Shown here: positions 1,970 to 39,126 of the stretch, in pieces
How the letters are laid out: each line of letters opens with the position of its first letter
Position numbering within the stretch: the stretch's first letter is position 1
Assembly: GCF_029017505.1 (NCBI RefSeq)
Contig: NZ_JAQGEI010000041.1
Location: 1-50,677 of the forward strand
DNA: 50,677 nt
DNA from: Sedimenticola hydrogenitrophicus
Lineage (GTDB): Bacteria; Pseudomonadota; Gammaproteobacteria; Chromatiales; Chromatiaceae
Reading direction: 5' to 3'
Position numbers and translations under genes: made by a program
The notes under the pieces: generated by a model
What the model was told of the DNA's origin: nothing
The model's input: the letters and a program-made list of their open reading frames with translations, nothing else
Database searches by the model: none

Positions 1970-2488
1970 ATGAGCAATTATCGTCGAGCTTATGTTCCCG
2001 GTGGCACATACTTTTTTACCGTTGTTACTCATCATCGCGTCCCGGTATTTACTAATGAAGAACATGTTGAGGTGCTCAGGCAAGCCTTCCGCAAGGTCAT
2101 GGCAGCCCGTCCATTCGCAATCGATGCGATGGTCGTCCTGCCTGAACACCTGCACTGTATCTGGCGTATGCCGGAAAGCGATGCCGACTACTCTTCCCGT
2201 TGGCGGGAAATAAAGAAAGCCACGTCACGTCGCATTCGTACAATCACCAATACCCGCAATGAGCGAATGCTGTGGCAGCGAAGATTCTGGGAGCACGCTA
2301 TACGTGATGGGGAGGATTGGCGCAGGCATGTGGATTATATTCATTACAACCCGGTGAAACATGGGTTGGTGAAACGCCCCGGGGATTGGCGGTGGTCGTC
2401 TTTCGGCGGCGCTACCAGCAGGGGGTGGTATGAAGCGTCCTGGGGTGCCAGTGAACCGGCGAGTATCACAAGTATGGATTGTGAATGA
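1970..2488 (+). CDS. REP-associated tyrosine transposase (RAYT), Y1/IS200-like
   Basis: This 172-residue HUH-type single-strand nuclease belongs to the TnpA(REP) family, which is thought to move REP palindromes. The HUH motif is seen in VVLPEHLHCIWR near residue 62 and the catalytic-tyrosine helix in YIHYNPVKHGLV near 126. WQRRFWEHAIRD is also typical of the family. GGGAG lies 8 nt before the ATG. The gene sits between two REP-A pairs, and a broken copy of its 5' end is found at 7774-7832. There is no sign of a frameshift, so it may be active. Confidence 0.9.
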   Translation: MSNYRRAYVPGGTYFFTVVTHHRVPVFTNEEHVEVLRQAFRKVMAARPFAIDAMVVLPEHLHCIWRMPESDADYSSRWREIKKATSRRIRTITNTRNERMLWQRRFWEHAIRDGEDWRRHVDYIHYNPVKHGLVKRPGDWRWSSFGGATSRGWYEASWGASEPASITSMDCE

Positions 2489-21004: not shown

Positions 21005-21892
21005 ATGATTGAGTTTCACAACGTCGTAAAAAGATTCCGCCGTCATGAAGTACTGAAGGGCGTCGACCTGACCATCGAGCGCGGCCATCGGGTTGCCCTG
21101 GTGGGGTCCAATGGCGCTGGCAAGACCACGCTGATCCGTTGTCTGCTGGGTGAATATACCTGCGAAGGTTCGGTGACGGTGGACGCACTGGCGCCACGCG
21201 AGCATCGCCGCGCCGTGCTCTCCAAGGTGGGTTTTGTCCCGCAACTGCCGCCACCGCTGAAAATGCCGGTCGGGCAACTGATCCGCTTCGCCGCCAGCGT
21301 CTGTGATTCCGATCCGCAACGAATGACCGATGTGGCCACCCGCCTGGGGCTGGACACGGAGCGTTTCCGCCACCAGCCCTTCGTCAAACTCTCCGGCGGC
21401 CAGAAACAGAAGCTGCTGATCAGCATCGCCCTGGGGCGTGACAGCGAGTTGCTGGTGATGGATGAGCCGGCGGCCAACCTGGACCCCGAGGCACGCCACA
21501 TCTTTTTCAGCCTGCTGGCGGAGAAGAAGGATGAGGCCGCCATGATCATCTCCAGTCATCGCCTGGACGAGGTGGCCTCCCTGGTAAACCGGGTGATCGA
21601 GATGGATCAGGGGCGGGTGGTGCTGGATGATCGGGTGGCCGATCTGGTGGAGCTCTCCAGTCGTCTGCACTGCCGTATCCGGCTGATCCGCCCCGAGGCG
21701 CCCTTTGCCAAGGCCATCCAGGAGTGGGGCTTCAAGGGGTCGGTGGACGGTCGCGAATGGAGTGGCCAGGTGGCCGGTCCGGACCGGCTGCGTTTTCTCG
21801 GCGTCCTCTCCCGCTACGCGGCCCTGCTCTCCAGCATCGACATGCGTGAAGCCGAGACGGCGAAGGATTACGAGGCGGTGGTGAATGAATAA
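21005..21892 (+). CDS. nosF: NosF, ABC transporter ATPase for NosZ maturation
   Basis: This 295-residue ATP-binding subunit has Walker A GSNGAGKTTL (near residue 35), Q-loop GFVPQLPPP, signature LSGGQKQKLLI, Walker B LLVMDEP and a switch His in IISSHRLDE. It pairs with NosY and acts with NosD to supply what is needed to build the CuZ site, probably sulfur. An ATG at 21001 is immediately closed by a stop and has no role in this frame. The end of nosF overlaps the nosL start (ATGAATAA). Confidence 0.93.
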   Translation: MIEFHNVVKRFRRHEVLKGVDLTIERGHRVALVGSNGAGKTTLIRCLLGEYTCEGSVTVDALAPREHRRAVLSKVGFVPQLPPPLKMPVGQLIRFAASVCDSDPQRMTDVATRLGLDTERFRHQPFVKLSGGQKQKLLISIALGRDSELLVMDEPAANLDPEARHIFFSLLAEKKDEAAMIISSHRLDEVASLVNRVIEMDQGRVVLDDRVADLVELSSRLHCRIRLIRPEAPFAKAIQEWGFKGSVDGREWSGQVAGPDRLRFLGVLSRYAALLSSIDMREAETAKDYEAVVNE

Positions 21893-22703
21893 GGGCTCGA
21901 ATGGCACTAAGTTAAGGCAGGCGTCCATTTTTTCGTCATTCTGGCACAGGCCGGACAAAAGCGCGAAGCGCGTTGAACGACTGAAAGTCGGCCCGAAGGG
22001 TGAGCGAAGCGAATCATCCATAAATTCACCACGGATGCGGGTTCTGGATGCCATCCTTAGGTCCGTAAACGGTGCATCCCTGCACCACTCCTCCGGCATG
22101 CGCCGGGATGACGGAGGCTCTGGGTTTAACTTAGTGCCATTCATTAAGGGCTTCACCCTGCTGTTCGCGGGGCTGCTGACGTTGCTGGTCAGCGCCTGCA
22201 GCGGCGATCCGGGGACCGGTCCCGGCGAGGTGAAGTGGGACCGGGACGCCTGCGAGCGCTGCCGCATGGTGCTCAGTGACCGAAATCACGCGGCGCAGAT
22301 CCGTTATTTTCCGGCCGACAAGAAGCGCTCGAAACTGATGAAGTTCGATGATATCGGCTGCGCGGTTATCTGGCTGGAGGACAAGCCCTGGAAGGATGAC
22401 CAGAAGACCCAGATCTGGGTGACGGACATCAACGGTGGCTGGATCGACGCCCGGAACGCCACCTATGTCAAAGGCGATTTGACACCCATGGAGTACGGCC
22501 TCGGGGCGCAGTCTCAACCGGTCTCGGGTGGACTCGATTTCGCCCAGGCGAAGGCGCATATCTTTGCCGTTGAGGAACGTTTCAACATCCACGGCGTGGA
22601 TCTGCTGAAACGACTGGAGGAGCGACAGGGGAAGCAGCCGGGGAAGGTCCAGTCGGGCCGCACCGATTCCCATAACCATACAGCGGGTGAGACCAATCAA
22701 TGA
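21885..22703 (+). CDS. nosL: NosL copper-binding lipoprotein, signal peptide interrupted by a MITE
   Basis: NosL is an outer-membrane copper lipoprotein that delivers Cu(I) for NosZ. The mature part is normal: lipobox LLVSAC, CERCRMVLSDRNHAAQI (Cys-x-x-Cys and Met ligand region), KLMKFDDIGC and WVTDINGGWIDARNA. The first four codons (MNKG) overlap the end of nosF, but a 244-bp MITE plus its duplicated target lies between them and FTLLFAGLL. The insertion adds exactly 85 codons with no stop. Without it the protein would begin MNKGFTLLFAGLLTLLVSAC, a classic 19-residue lipoprotein signal. Today translation may run through, start at GTG 22134 inside the MITE end (giving MPFIKGFTLL...), or start at ATG 22098. 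The C-terminus overlaps a micro-ORF. Confidence 0.85.
   Translation: MNKGSNGTKLRQASIFSSFWHRPDKSAKRVERLKVGPKGERSESSINSPRMRVLDAILRSVNGASLHHSSGMRRDDGGSGFNLVPFIKGFTLLFAGLLTLLVSACSGDPGTGPGEVKWDRDACERCRMVLSDRNHAAQIRYFPADKKRSKLMKFDDIGCAVIWLEDKPWKDDQKTQIWVTDINGGWIDARNATYVKGDLTPMEYGLGAQSQPVSGGLDFAQAKAHIFAVEERFNIHGVDLLKRLEERQGKQPGKVQSGRTDSHNHTAGETNQ
21899..22142. mobile_element. MITE copy 3 (GAATGGCACT family), 244 bp, inside nosL
   Basis: The 17-bp ends GAATGGCACTAAGTTAA / TTAACTTAGTGCCATTC are perfect inverted repeats. The flanks AATAAGGGCTC and ATTAAGGGCTT match at 9 of 11 positions, which suggests an older target duplication. It carries both internal modules: the 60-bp one at 21955-22014 (as in copy 1) and a CCTTAGGTCCGTAAACGG...CACTCCTCCGG one at about 22049-22097 (as in copy 4). 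It is open in the nosL frame throughout. Confidence 0.9.
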
Positions 22704-22777
22704 AAAATTGGCAGGATAGACAATTTTCACGGCCGCAGGCCGCCCGTCAGGGTGCGGCACAGGGAGGTGCCGCATGA
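22700..22777 (+). CDS. 25-codon micro-ORF in a coupling repeat between nosL and nosY
   Basis: ATG at 22700 overlaps the nosL stop (ATGA) and the TGA at 22775 overlaps the nosY start (ATGA), so the unit fills the junction exactly. The peptide begins MKNWQDRQFSRPQ and ends RQGAAQGGAA. The DNA also forms two hairpins, ACGGCCGCAGGCCGCCCGT and GTGCGGCAC...GTGCCGC, and contains AGGGAGG 6 nt before the nosY ATG. A near-identical unit, in tandem, precedes rsmA. Whether the peptide is made, or only the coupling matters, is unknown. It could also be a non-coding repeat whose target duplication is ATGA. Confidence 0.6.
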   Translation: MKNWQDRQFSRPQAARQGAAQGGAA

Positions 22778-23601
22778 AACATCTCTGGTTAACTGCGTAC
22801 GCCGATATCGTCGAGTCGCTGCGGGCGCGCTGGTTCATGGTCTACACTCTGGTGTTCGGCGGTCTGGTGGTGGTGCTGTTCGCCTACGGACTGGCCGAGT
22901 CCCGCATCATGGGTTTCACCGGGCTGTCGCGGCTGCTGCTCACCTATATCCAGATCTCCATGGCCATCCTGCCGGTGTTCGTGCTGATCACCACGGTGCG
23001 TTCGGTGGCCGGGGATCGCGAGGCCGGGGTGTTCGAGTACCTGCTGTCGCTGCCGATCAGCCTGGCGGCCTGGTTCTGGGGCAAGATCTTCGGGCGTTTC
23101 CTGGTGGTGTTCCTGCCGGTGCTGCTGGCCATGGTCGGCGCGGTGATCTGGGGCACCATCAAGGGCGTCAACGTCCCCTGGGATCTGTTTATCTATTACA
23201 CCGGCCTACTGATGGCCCTGGCCTGGTGTTTCCTCGGCATCGGCATGCTGATCTCCACCCTGGCACGCAGCTCGGATGTGGCCCAGGGCGCGGCCTTCGT
23301 GGTCTGGTTAACCCTGTTGCTGTTTCTCGACCTGATCCTGCTCGGTATCCTGATCCAGGAGCAGCTGCCGGCCGAGACCGCGGTGGCCATTGCCCTGGTT
23401 AATCCGATGCAGGTGTTCCGCACCGCCACCATGATGCTGTTCGATCCGCAGCTGGTGCTGCTGGGTCCCTCCGCCTACGTCATCCTCGATACCTTCGGCC
23501 AGAAGGGTTATATCGCCTACGCGCTGCTCTACCCCATCCTGGTGGGTACGGCCTGTGCCGCGCTGGGTTTCCTCCACTTCCGGCGCAGCGATCTGCCCTG
23601 A
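22774..23601 (+). CDS. nosY: NosY, ABC-2 type permease for NosZ maturation
   Basis: This 275-residue membrane protein has six predicted helices and the pattern of ABC-2 permeases (AGDREAGVFEYLLSLPISLAAWFWGK near residue 78). It forms the membrane channel for NosF. NP-Q-F (VNPMQVFRTATMMLFDP) near residue 208 is conserved in the family. Its start codon and ribosome binding site are provided by the repeat unit that separates it from nosL. Confidence 0.92.
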   Translation: MKHLWLTAYADIVESLRARWFMVYTLVFGGLVVVLFAYGLAESRIMGFTGLSRLLLTYIQISMAILPVFVLITTVRSVAGDREAGVFEYLLSLPISLAAWFWGKIFGRFLVVFLPVLLAMVGAVIWGTIKGVNVPWDLFIYYTGLLMALAWCFLGIGMLISTLARSSDVAQGAAFVVWLTLLLFLDLILLGILIQEQLPAETAVAIALVNPMQVFRTATMMLFDPQLVLLGPSAYVILDTFGQKGYIAYALLYPILVGTACAALGFLHFRRSDLP

Positions 23602-23690: not shown

Positions 23691-23815
23691 GCGAGGAGTG
23701 GTGCATCCTTGCACCACTCCTCGCGGCTTAATGAACAGTTTTCAATCCTGATTGAGTCGGGCGGGTAATCGGAAACTTTTTGCGGCATATCACGCAACGT
23801 CGCGTGATATGCCGC
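23691..23815. repeat. Two strong hairpins between nosY and the copper-chaperone genes
   Basis: GCGAGGAGTGGTGC / GCACCACTCCTCGC (23691-23724) and GCGGCATATCACGC / GCGTGATATGCCGC (23782-23815) are perfect 14-bp inverted repeats with 6-nt loops. Neither has a T run. The first is related to the CCACTCCTC units in MITE copies 3 and 4. No gene is seen in 23602-23932. Confidence 0.75.
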
Positions 23816-31146: not shown

Positions 31147-31330
31147 GAATGGCACTTACTTAAAGCGAATCGCAGGATTTTCGTCATTCCGGCGCAGGCC
31201 GGAATCCAGGAATACCGCCACTGATAAGCAGTCTGGATGCCATCCTTAGGTCCGTAAACGGTGCATCCCTGCACCACTCCTCCGGCCTGCGCCGGGATGA
31301 CGGTAGTTCTTGGCTTAGTAAGTGCCATTC
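31147..31330. mobile_element. MITE copy 4 (GAATGGCACT family), 184 bp
   Basis: GAATGGCACTTACTTAA at the left faces TTAGTAAGTGCCATTC at the right, which has lost one base. The 11-bp direct repeat GGGTCAGATGG flanks it exactly (31136-31146, 31331-31341). It carries the CCTTAGGTCCGTAAACGG...CACTCCTCCGG module also seen in the nosL copy. Confidence 0.92.
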
Positions 31331-38167: not shown

Positions 38168-38974
38168 TCAGGCTGGTGGTGCGGTTTTACAAGCCAGGTT
38201 GGAGAGGCGCACGAAATCGGCCAGGGAGAGCCGTTCCGCCCGCAGTGACGGATCGATTCCGGCGGCACCGATCAGCTCGGCGTCCATCAGTTTGCCGAGG
38301 CTGTTGCGCAGGGTCTTGCGGCGCTGGGAAAAGGCGCTGGTGACCAGGCGGGAGAAGTGCGCCGGGTCGTCGATGACGTGGGGCGGCTGCGCGTGGGGGA
38401 TCAGCCGCACGATGGCCGAGTCCACCTTGGGTGCCGGCTTGAAGGCGCCGGGGCCGATCTCGAACAGGGCCTCCACCTCGCACCACGCCTGCATCATCAC
38501 CGACAGGCGGCCATAGGTCTTGCCGCCCGGCCCGGCGGCCATCCGTTGCACCACCTCTTTCTGCAGCATGAAGTGCATGTCGCGGATGATGTCGGCAAAC
38601 TGCAGCAGGTGGAACAGGATCGGGGTCGAGATGTTGTAGGGCAGATTGCCCACCAGCCGCAGCGGGCGGCCATCGCCGGCCAGCGACGCGAAATCGAATT
38701 TGAGCGCATCGCTGTTATAGATATTCAGTTCGCCCAGCCCGGCGCAGCTGACCGCCAGGGGGTGGATCAGATCCCGGTCCAGTTCCACCGCGTCCAGCCG
38801 GCCACAGCGTTTCAGCAGCTCCCGGGTGATGGCACCATGACCCGGACCGATCTCCACCAGGTGCTCGTCCGGCCTTGGATGGATGCTGGCGATGATGCGC
38901 TGGATCACGCCGGGATCGTGCAGGAAGTTCTGGCCGAAACGCTTCTTGGCCTGATGGGGTGGTCTGGAGTTCAT
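38168..38974 (-). CDS. rsmA: 16S rRNA (adenine(1518)-N6/adenine(1519)-N6)-dimethyltransferase
   Basis: This 268-residue KsgA methyltransferase dimethylates two adenines in helix 45 of 16S rRNA. KKRFGQNFLHDPGVIQRI is the family start, LVEIGPGHGAITREL is the SAM motif, and NLPYNISTPILF is the catalytic NLPY motif. The frame is open far upstream, but MNSRPPHQAKKRFGQ at 38974 fits the family. Its ATG overlaps the stop of the tandem micro-ORF (ATGA), so the repeat supplies the start context. Confidence 0.95.
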   Translation of the reverse strand: MNSRPPHQAKKRFGQNFLHDPGVIQRIIASIHPRPDEHLVEIGPGHGAITRELLKRCGRLDAVELDRDLIHPLAVSCAGLGELNIYNSDALKFDFASLAGDGRPLRLVGNLPYNISTPILFHLLQFADIIRDMHFMLQKEVVQRMAAGPGGKTYGRLSVMMQAWCEVEALFEIGPGAFKPAPKVDSAIVRLIPHAQPPHVIDDPAHFSRLVTSAFSQRRKTLRNSLGKLMDAELIGAAGIDPSLRAERLSLADFVRLSNLACKTAPPA

Positions 38975-39126
38975 GCGGCACATCCCTGTGCCGCACCCTG
39001 ACGGGCGGCCTGCGGCCGTGAAAATGGTCTCTCCTGCCAATTTTTCATGCGGTGGGCACATCCCTGTGCCGCACCCTGGCGTGCGGCCTGCGGCTGTGAA
39101 AATGGTCTCTCCTGCCAATTTTTCAT
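38971..39126 (-). CDS. Tandem 51-residue micro-ORF (two coupling repeats) before rsmA
   Basis: Two copies of the 78-bp unit seen between nosL and nosY lie head to tail. The distal copy (39126-39049) reads MKNWQERPFSQPQAARQG... and, instead of the stop, continues CAHR in frame into the proximal copy (39048-38971). That one reads MKNWQERPFSRPQAARQG... and stops at a TGA overlapping the rsmA ATG. Differences between the two copies include synonymous third-position changes (GCC/GCA, CGT/CGC). It may be translated on its own, may serve to couple translation, or may be only a repeat. Confidence 0.55.
   Translation of the reverse strand: MKNWQERPFSQPQAARQGAAQGCAHRMKNWQERPFSRPQAARQGAAQGCAA

Follow-up and report, generated by a model that had tools for sequence, protein, structure and literature searches.

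A hairpin-built repeat at gene starts of Sedimenticola that may bridge neighbouring genes through a coupled micro-ORF

Our comparisons suggest that a 78-nt repeat of Sedimenticola is most probably a small non-autonomous mobile element, which sits at ATGA or GTGA gene starts and bridges the adjoining genes by a translationally coupled micro-ORF. One copy lies at the nosL/nosY junction of the window (the whole stretch of DNA analysed, 50,677 nt), where a 78-nt unit with ATGA at both ends and a 25-codon frame was found exactly as the first-pass annotation had read it (Table 1). The micro-ORF translation reads MKNWQDRQFSRPQAARQGAAQGGAA up to the stop codon, and the A of the nosY start codon is the end of the 3′ arm of hairpin 3. 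A copy was also present before rsmA, as had been noted, but where a single unit had been described there are two fused tandem copies, with 4 extra nucleotides joining the frames of both into one 51-codon ORF.

Table 1. Coordinates of the repeat units and of the flanking genes in the window.
Feature	Position	Strand	Remarks
nosL	21885-22703	+	Upstream gene; longest ORF; name from the first-pass annotation
Repeat unit, type A	22700-22777	+	78 nt including both ATGA (net insertion 74 nt), with 25-codon micro-ORF
Left ATGA	22700-22703	+	nosL stop TGA and micro-ORF start ATG
Hairpin 1	22706-22725	+	Unit columns 7-11 paired with 22-26, GGA in loop; covariation
Hairpin 2	22730-22742	+	CGGCC GCA GGCCG
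Hairpin 3	22753-22774	+	8-bp stem, loop AGGGAG, -14.4 kcal/mol
AGGGAGG	22761-22767	+	Shine-Dalgarno-like, in and beside the hairpin 3 loop, before nosY; putative role
Right ATGA	22774-22777	+	Micro-ORF stop TGA and nosY start ATG
nosY	22774-23601	+	Downstream gene; ABC-2 membrane protein, PF12679
rsmA	38171-38974	-	Behind the tandem pair; PF00398
Second copy	38971-39048	-	Ends on the rsmA start codon; 96%
Third copy	39049-39126	-	In tandem with the second; about 90%

In its own genome (G000), the unit gave 39 matches at E<=10, including 21 strong ones at E<=5.4e-15, and a 30-nt fragment at 1.1e-4; the recurrence of 21 strong matches indicates that its occurrence is not due to chance. Matches at E<=0.001 were present in 10 of the 55 genomes searched, namely the own genome, the other genus genomes (8/8) and G052, the sole matching genome outside the genus, which contributed three stretches of 25-32 nt only. 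Plasmid and phage sequences gave no match to the unit at E 1e-5 and 1e-2, viral contigs did not contain its exact 26-nt pattern, and none of the 13 records matching that pattern was titled as mycobacterium. When 10 unit loci were compared with Rfam, 5 matches up to E=1 were obtained, none at the unit itself. The start-type unit also occurred in records not titled Sedimenticola, where, with gene names assigned by eye, it preceded fic-like genes (L103, L106, L312 and L315), stood between AbiEi-like and AbiEii-like genes (L107) or, 24 nt shorter and still in frame, lay between gspL-like and gspM-like genes (L314).

The copies were taken with their flanks and each array was read from its left to its right ATGA. 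The right-hand ATGA or GTGA was the start codon of a gene in 21 of the 22 loci with copies of type A, B or C. These downstream genes were nosY, prfA, hisI, rsmA, hypD, flgN, spoVR, cca, dnaE and those for a TPP enzyme, a PAS protein, a response regulator, an ABC ATPase, an RRM protein, a YfcE-type phosphoesterase, a 2-oxoacid dehydrogenase E2 and a Fic protein, together with a ferredoxin-like gene, a CRP-like gene, a histidine kinase-like gene and an ORF of 130 codons; the names histidine kinase-like and CRP-like, and those of the upstream genes hemA, hypC, yeaH and ccmB, are our own reading of the sequence. A Pfam domain was found in 18 of the 19 downstream ORFs scanned. The exception among the 22 loci was ccmB-ccmC, whose copies are intergenic (L012, L065). 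The 22-locus count omits two weak copies of G006 (L094 and L095), which lie at no gene start; with both taken as misses it becomes 21/24 (P 7e-12). In the window, 93 [AG]TGA sites were not wholly within a long ORF and a possible [AG]TGA start was found for 25 of 42 ORFs. Taking 21% of the relevant [AG]TGA sites to be starts, 21/22 would arise by chance with a probability of about 1e-13, and with one of 5e-6 even at a share of 50%, values that are rough because the share of sites comes from a single window and the copies are related; since the copies share ancestry, the locus and array counts are not independent either. The left TGA also ended an upstream open frame of at least 110 codons in 8 of 20 gene loci, and all 45 arrays at gene starts were oriented toward the gene.

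Empty counterparts of these sites were found within the genus. The hemA/prfA junction was filled in G000, G003 and G006 and empty in G001, G002, G004, G005, G007 and G008. At the prfA start, the empty G001 reads CACTCA followed by ATGAACGCATCC, and the filled G000 reads CACTCA followed by ATGAAAAATTGG, the remainder of the unit up to GCCGC, and again ATGAACGCATCC; the two thus differ by a net 74-nt insertion with ATGA on either side, the hemA stop and the prfA start being unchanged. The hypC/hypD junction was filled in G000 and G001 and empty in five of the seven genus genomes in which it was found (G002, G003, G004, G006 and G008), and every empty junction had a native ATGA overlap. The comparison of nosL/nosY junctions that the first-pass annotation had proposed yielded empty sites in G002, G005, G007 and G008, but the flanks were not letter-perfect (CAATA or CACTA before ATGA), because in the empty genomes the stop TAA overlaps the start by one base (TAATGA). 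The cca junction was empty, with a GTGA overlap, in G006 and G017; in the filled G002 it has GTGA to the left of the unit and ATGA to its right. This pattern fits an element that imports its own right-hand ATGA, a later mutation being the alternative. The rsmA junction was found in six other genus genomes, all of them devoid of the unit, their starts not being alignable letter for letter. The insertion and its site are in this way established by comparison, and the earlier description of a dispersed repeat that duplicates ATGA, preserves both neighbours and connects them through a micro-ORF is supported by the start positions, the kept chain and the empty sites.

Relatives of the unit were also found in antisense inside IS91-like transposase genes of two other genera (L104 and L110), at TCAT or TTCAT, the junctions being read from these two loci alone. 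The relative in L110 is in frame and adds 24 codons to its host gene, and that in L104 is out of frame (net 73 nt) and not at a start. Because these insertions lie at TCAT, the ATGA/TCAT target occurs outside start codons too. In the plasmid search, the host gene of L110 matched IS91-like or ISCR-type transposases at 60-90% identity, and it is from the annotations of those plasmid matches that the label IS91-like is taken.

Comparison of the arrays likewise established that the chain of ORFs is kept. An unbroken chain was present in 43 of the 45 arrays at gene starts (48 links), each link being an ORF stop within the ATGA or GTGA that starts the following ORF, with micro-ORFs of 5 to 83 codons; this count omits L006 and L069 (left end truncated), L012 and L065 (intergenic), L097 and L098 (cut by contig ends), and L094 and L095 (no left-hand ATG, 73% identity). 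Of the two exceptions, L063 carries a TAG that ends the ORF early, with an ATG 5 nt on in the frame of the gene, and L073 has a broken chain. The first-pass annotation had conceded that the ATGA coupling would be coincidental if most copies lay away from start codons or in no consistent frame; with 21/22 loci at starts and 43/45 arrays keeping the chain, the copies behaved otherwise.

The chain persisted where the unit itself had been rebuilt. Before spoVR in G000 (L096), the unit is split by about 160 nt of another element, and the ORF continues for 79 codons to the spoVR ATGA; at nosL/nosY of G001 (L308, L173), much of the unit is replaced and a 61-codon ORF links the nosL stop to the nosY start; and in L072 two successive ORFs, of 83 and 5 codons and each with an ATGA overlap, lead into the next gene. 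In three species the cca junction carries a 12-nt in-frame deletion, different in each (L075, L076 and L079). All 11 listed length changes were multiples of three, in a list compiled by hand that omits the 4-nt tandem changes (most of which fuse two frames), L104 with its net 73 nt, and L072 and L173, counted as chimeras. Frame 0 was open in 48 of 50 copies, against a mean of 36 (28-43) in 300 random-substitution simulations, a test that omits L094, L095, L012, L065 and the copies that are not 78 or 82 nt long. Counted singly on the consensus, stop-making substitutions in frame 0 were hardly avoided (5 seen vs 7.3 expected), and the frame-keeping signal resides in whole copies and length changes, not in single substitutions.

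These data also bear on two readings in which a protein sequence would matter. In the first, the amino-acid sequence of the micro-ORF would itself act, by attenuation or as a working peptide. The intact ORF in 43/45 arrays and the similar peptides in most of them agree with this, but synonymous changes showed no excess (29 among 113 distinct substitutions, 26.2 expected), so that the open frame rather than the peptide seems to be conserved, and peptides of 5 to 83 codons, some wholly different in sequence, occupy the same place. We regard it as very improbable, and the leader peptide put forward in the first-pass annotation, taken in its strict sense, finds no amino-acid constraint behind it. 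In the second, which appears scarcely credible, the unit would be an N-terminal extension of the downstream protein, read in the frame of the gene. In 31 of 50 copies that frame contains no stop, and a TTG or ATG could serve as its start, but in the other 19 it is interrupted by a stop, and the Pfam matches begin 1 to 13 residues from the native start in most proteins scanned.

The unit has three predicted hairpins, two of them with GGA loops, and these too are established by comparison. Among 39 aligned genus copies, 93.3% of the paired cells pair and 9 of the 18 pairs show compensatory changes on both sides, a covariation score reached in 0 of 500 shuffles. Hairpin 3 has a predicted energy of -14 to -16 kcal/mol with AGGGA in the loop, and the type B unit has a different hairpin-1 stem with a similar loop. 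Matches to a covariance model were obtained in at least 44 of 146 genomes of the family, at least 38 of them outside the genus. In 56 aligned model matches all 18 pairs had changed on both sides and slid versions scored far lower, in an alignment fitted to the model that had found its rows and with nine rows from the genus itself. With a simple hairpin finder, GGA was located in or adjacent to the hairpin 1 loop in 50/56 rows, and likewise for the hairpin 3 loop in 52/56. The lengths of these diverged relatives cover all three phases (14, 23 and 19 rows), and 12 of the 56 have an [AG]TGA right end. Because the diverged relatives are of every length phase and few lie at starts, the gene-start type of the unit is probably a derived form.

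It could then be argued that the unit is a plain REP- or MITE-like repeat whose ORF and ATGA ends are by-products of its composition. The micro-ORF frame is open in 34 of the 56 diverged relatives, and the insertions at TCAT in the transposase genes of L104 and L110 would suit such a repeat. However, a right-hand [AG]TGA followed by an open frame of at least 85 codons is seen in only 6 of the 56 rows, and the spread over three length phases contrasts with the regularity at gene starts, where the proportions of starts and of kept chains given above, the three different in-frame deletions at one junction and the chain-keeping chimeras would have to be fortuitous. We consider this explanation improbable. 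Of the REP-like element suggested in the first-pass annotation, the ancestry is plausible, given the three-hairpin relatives in at least 38 genomes of other genera, but the gene-start unit is probably not a plain repeat.

Y1 transposases were evaluated as movers of the unit and found no support: 12 genomes gave 53 Y1 matches, and among the 30 of these loci scanned with the model no Y1 gene had the same ends. A diverged relative was detected at L255 (E 6e-6), and three other loci gave matches only at E 0.04 to 0.95. Several further relatives were seen in unusual places. A diverged relative lies between glyQ-like and glyS-like genes in L132, L137 and L142 (G000, G001 and G003), where, by eye, the likely glyS start (ATG/GTG GAA GGC) would fall within the hairpin 3 loop. 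L134 (G000:C5:128906-129121) holds diverged relatives in a 142-nt tandem repeat with what looks by eye like a tRNA-Ser fragment, and in L141, L152 and L167 the relatives lie within sequences running from GGTTCGA to ATCC that, by eye, resemble a tRNA T-loop.

Returning to the coupled mobile element, we infer its mobility, the translation of the micro-ORF and coupling as a selected function. The element would insert at ATGA or GTGA, often where the upstream stop overlaps the start. A ribosome that has come to the end of the upstream gene, or has begun at the old start codon, would translate the micro-ORF and melt hairpin 3, which holds the downstream Shine-Dalgarno and start, and would then terminate at TGA and reinitiate on the overlapping ATG. 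For genes with no upstream partner, the old start and its Shine-Dalgarno would drive the micro-ORF. Since ribosomes would be handed on through the micro-ORF to the downstream start, the insertion would be nearly harmless, and selection would hold the frame open as the peptide drifts. Both routes of coupling, hairpin opening and reinitiation, are as explained for iraD (PMC5574718). A translation-coupling cassette, one of the possibilities raised in the first-pass annotation, appears well supported by the start positions, the 43/45 chains and the empty sites.

The GGA loops raise the question whether, beside coupling, the unit is a portable CsrA/RsmA switch, with two GGA-loop hairpins, one of them over the downstream Shine-Dalgarno. 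Such a switch is conceivable, and we treat CsrA control tentatively, as a serious addition and not as the main reading. The two hairpins lie 49 nt apart, so that a CsrA dimer could bridge them and repress the gene, and this spacing falls in the 10-63 nt bridging range (PMC7652899). GGA occupies unit columns 15-17 and 64-66, the second time within the AGGGA before the start, and hairpin 3, GCACAGGGAUGU, is one base off the SELEX consensus RUACARGGAUGU in the same source. The high-affinity CsrA form is described as an ANGGAX hexaloop on a stem (PMC4005645); this hexaloop was found in hairpin 3 in 28/39 genus rows and 42/56 diverged rows, and GGA is retained while the stems covary. The 48-nt insert of type C adds, in frame, CTGC-ATGGAT-GCAG and GCAACGC-AGGGA-GCGGTTGC. 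csrA was present in 10 of the 12 genomes searched (7/9 within the genus), and in G000 and G001 its sequence reads as standard CsrA, judged by likeness to the E. coli protein.

Other observations speak against CsrA. The diverged intergenic relatives had no orientation bias (10 sense and 14 antisense to the upstream gene, 12 to 11 for the downstream gene, in the 31 of 56 rows that a simple ORF rule placed outside long ORFs, the other 25 being dropped); the CsrA reading is lowered on this account, and the GGA loops may serve another purpose, such as transposase recognition. G-U and A-C changes were 19 to 14, with no clear strand bias, hairpin 3 was lost and the ORF kept in L076 and in the second unit of L089, and the model used to search for relatives already held the GGA loops. 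The stem also exceeds most SELEX stems in length (PMC7652899). If the switch existed, the candidate could be a mobile counterpart of the leader of E. coli iraD (PMC5574718), an analogy that we draw with reserve. It is a rather speculative extension that the mobile cassette has been seeded at unrelated genes (prfA, rsmA, hisI, cca, dnaE, spoVR, nosY, hypD and others) and has made them subject to a single CsrA-sensed translational switch; this somewhat doubtful regulon would combine a MIRU-like coupling ORF with GGA-loop hairpins, some copies having two extra GGA hairpins in frame. If it were true, a post-transcriptional regulon would have been built by transposition, and if GGA hairpins bind CsrA, the regulon would have been assembled in that way.

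Other repeats were noted near the unit and at its loci. The repeat family GGTGCATCCYTGCACCACTCC, at window positions 22071-22093, 23700-23722 and 31260-31282, forms A(A/G)GGAT hexaloop hairpins on the minus strand; of the 66 hexaloop hairpins of the window, three have ANGGAN loops, one from this family and two from the unit. The nosL open frame has 272 codons in the own genome vs 184 in G003 and G004, and its extra N-terminal part (window 21885-22147) consists of other dispersed repeats (D6-D8), in frame behind the nosF stop, so the nosF/nosL junction may display the same tolerance of in-frame insertions. The 5-codon ORF ATGAGGTTTTTRGRATGA, or a similar one, stands directly before a gene start with an ATGA overlap in L072 (1747-1764) and L224, and a similar stretch occurs in L223; the ORF of L072 and L224 has the appearance of a further coupling module. 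A Y1 (RAYT-like) transposase gene lies at window positions 2006-2296 between inverted GTAGGGTGGATAAGC-type repeats (1871-1956 and 2510-2589), which recur at other window positions.

Known systems share parts of this architecture. Palindromic elements of Rickettsia resemble the unit in being palindromic and mobile and in carrying an open frame that spares the host gene; however, they insert inside ORFs as protein fusions, whereas the unit lies between stop and start, and L110, in frame and antisense in its IS91-like transposase gene, is closer to them (PMC10969869). The TAACTGA repeats of Beggiatoaceae likewise stand directly 5′ of start codons in sulfur-oxidising Gammaproteobacteria, but they are heptanucleotide arrays with stops and with no predicted RNA structure, and the paper on them discusses Csr as a candidate, judging canonical CsrA unlikely (PMC4679880). 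In the E. coli iraD leader, CsrA acts via an ORF of 27 aa with a stop that overlaps the start codon of iraD; the unit shares with it the ORF stop on the gene start, the structure over the Shine-Dalgarno of the gene and the GGA sites, but iraD is a single gene and not a mobile repeat, and its CsrA site overlaps the Shine-Dalgarno of the ORF, whereas the candidate site in the unit overlaps that of the gene (PMC5574718). On the complementary strand, the unit presents TCAT beside hairpin 3, a likeness to IS200/IS605 and RAYT/REP elements. These have, like the unit, hairpins near both ends and a fixed tetranucleotide target beside the terminal hairpin. The unit differs in that no Y1 transposase with its ends was found among the 30 of 53 Y1 loci scanned, and the RAYT-like gene in the window goes with GTAG-type repeats, unlike the unit.

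The closest likeness is to the MIRUs, the mycobacterial interspersed repetitive units reportedly described by Supply et al. in 1997. MIRUs have DTGA target sites in operons, occur in tandem copies and have the same translational direction as the neighbouring gene; to our knowledge, they have no obvious palindromes. The Sedimenticola unit is likewise a short, mobile-looking repeat at start codons with an internal ORF in 4-nt overlap (43/45 arrays), found in ATGA and GTGA overlaps and in tandem copies and read toward the gene. It differs by its three covarying hairpins (9/18 pairs) and by its distant phylum, the likeness being one of working principle by description, and for the unit the empty sites and the frame-keeping chimeras are demonstrated across species. 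Because it is rich in covarying hairpins, we do not file the unit as a MIRU and call it instead a putative hairpin-built MIRU-like element in Gammaproteobacteria. Among the open-licence literature matches listed, no description of an element like it was found outside mycobacteria. The first-pass annotation knew of no described family of this kind, a claim that finds no support, since MIRUs are described with the same working principle: a 2025 review treats them as apparently mobile units that land on start codons, their internal ORF being coupled at -4 nt and their impact on the gene being likely minimal, and presents them as an interesting case of a mobile element possibly exploiting translational coupling (PMC12548453). 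With such a set also in a distant phylum, where sister species offer empty sites and chimeric junctions maintain the chain, it appears that landing on ATGA and bridging by a micro-ORF is a general route by which an element enters operons without polar damage, and because related species carry the same gene with and without the bridge, a natural experiment, the cost and effect of coupling are measurable.
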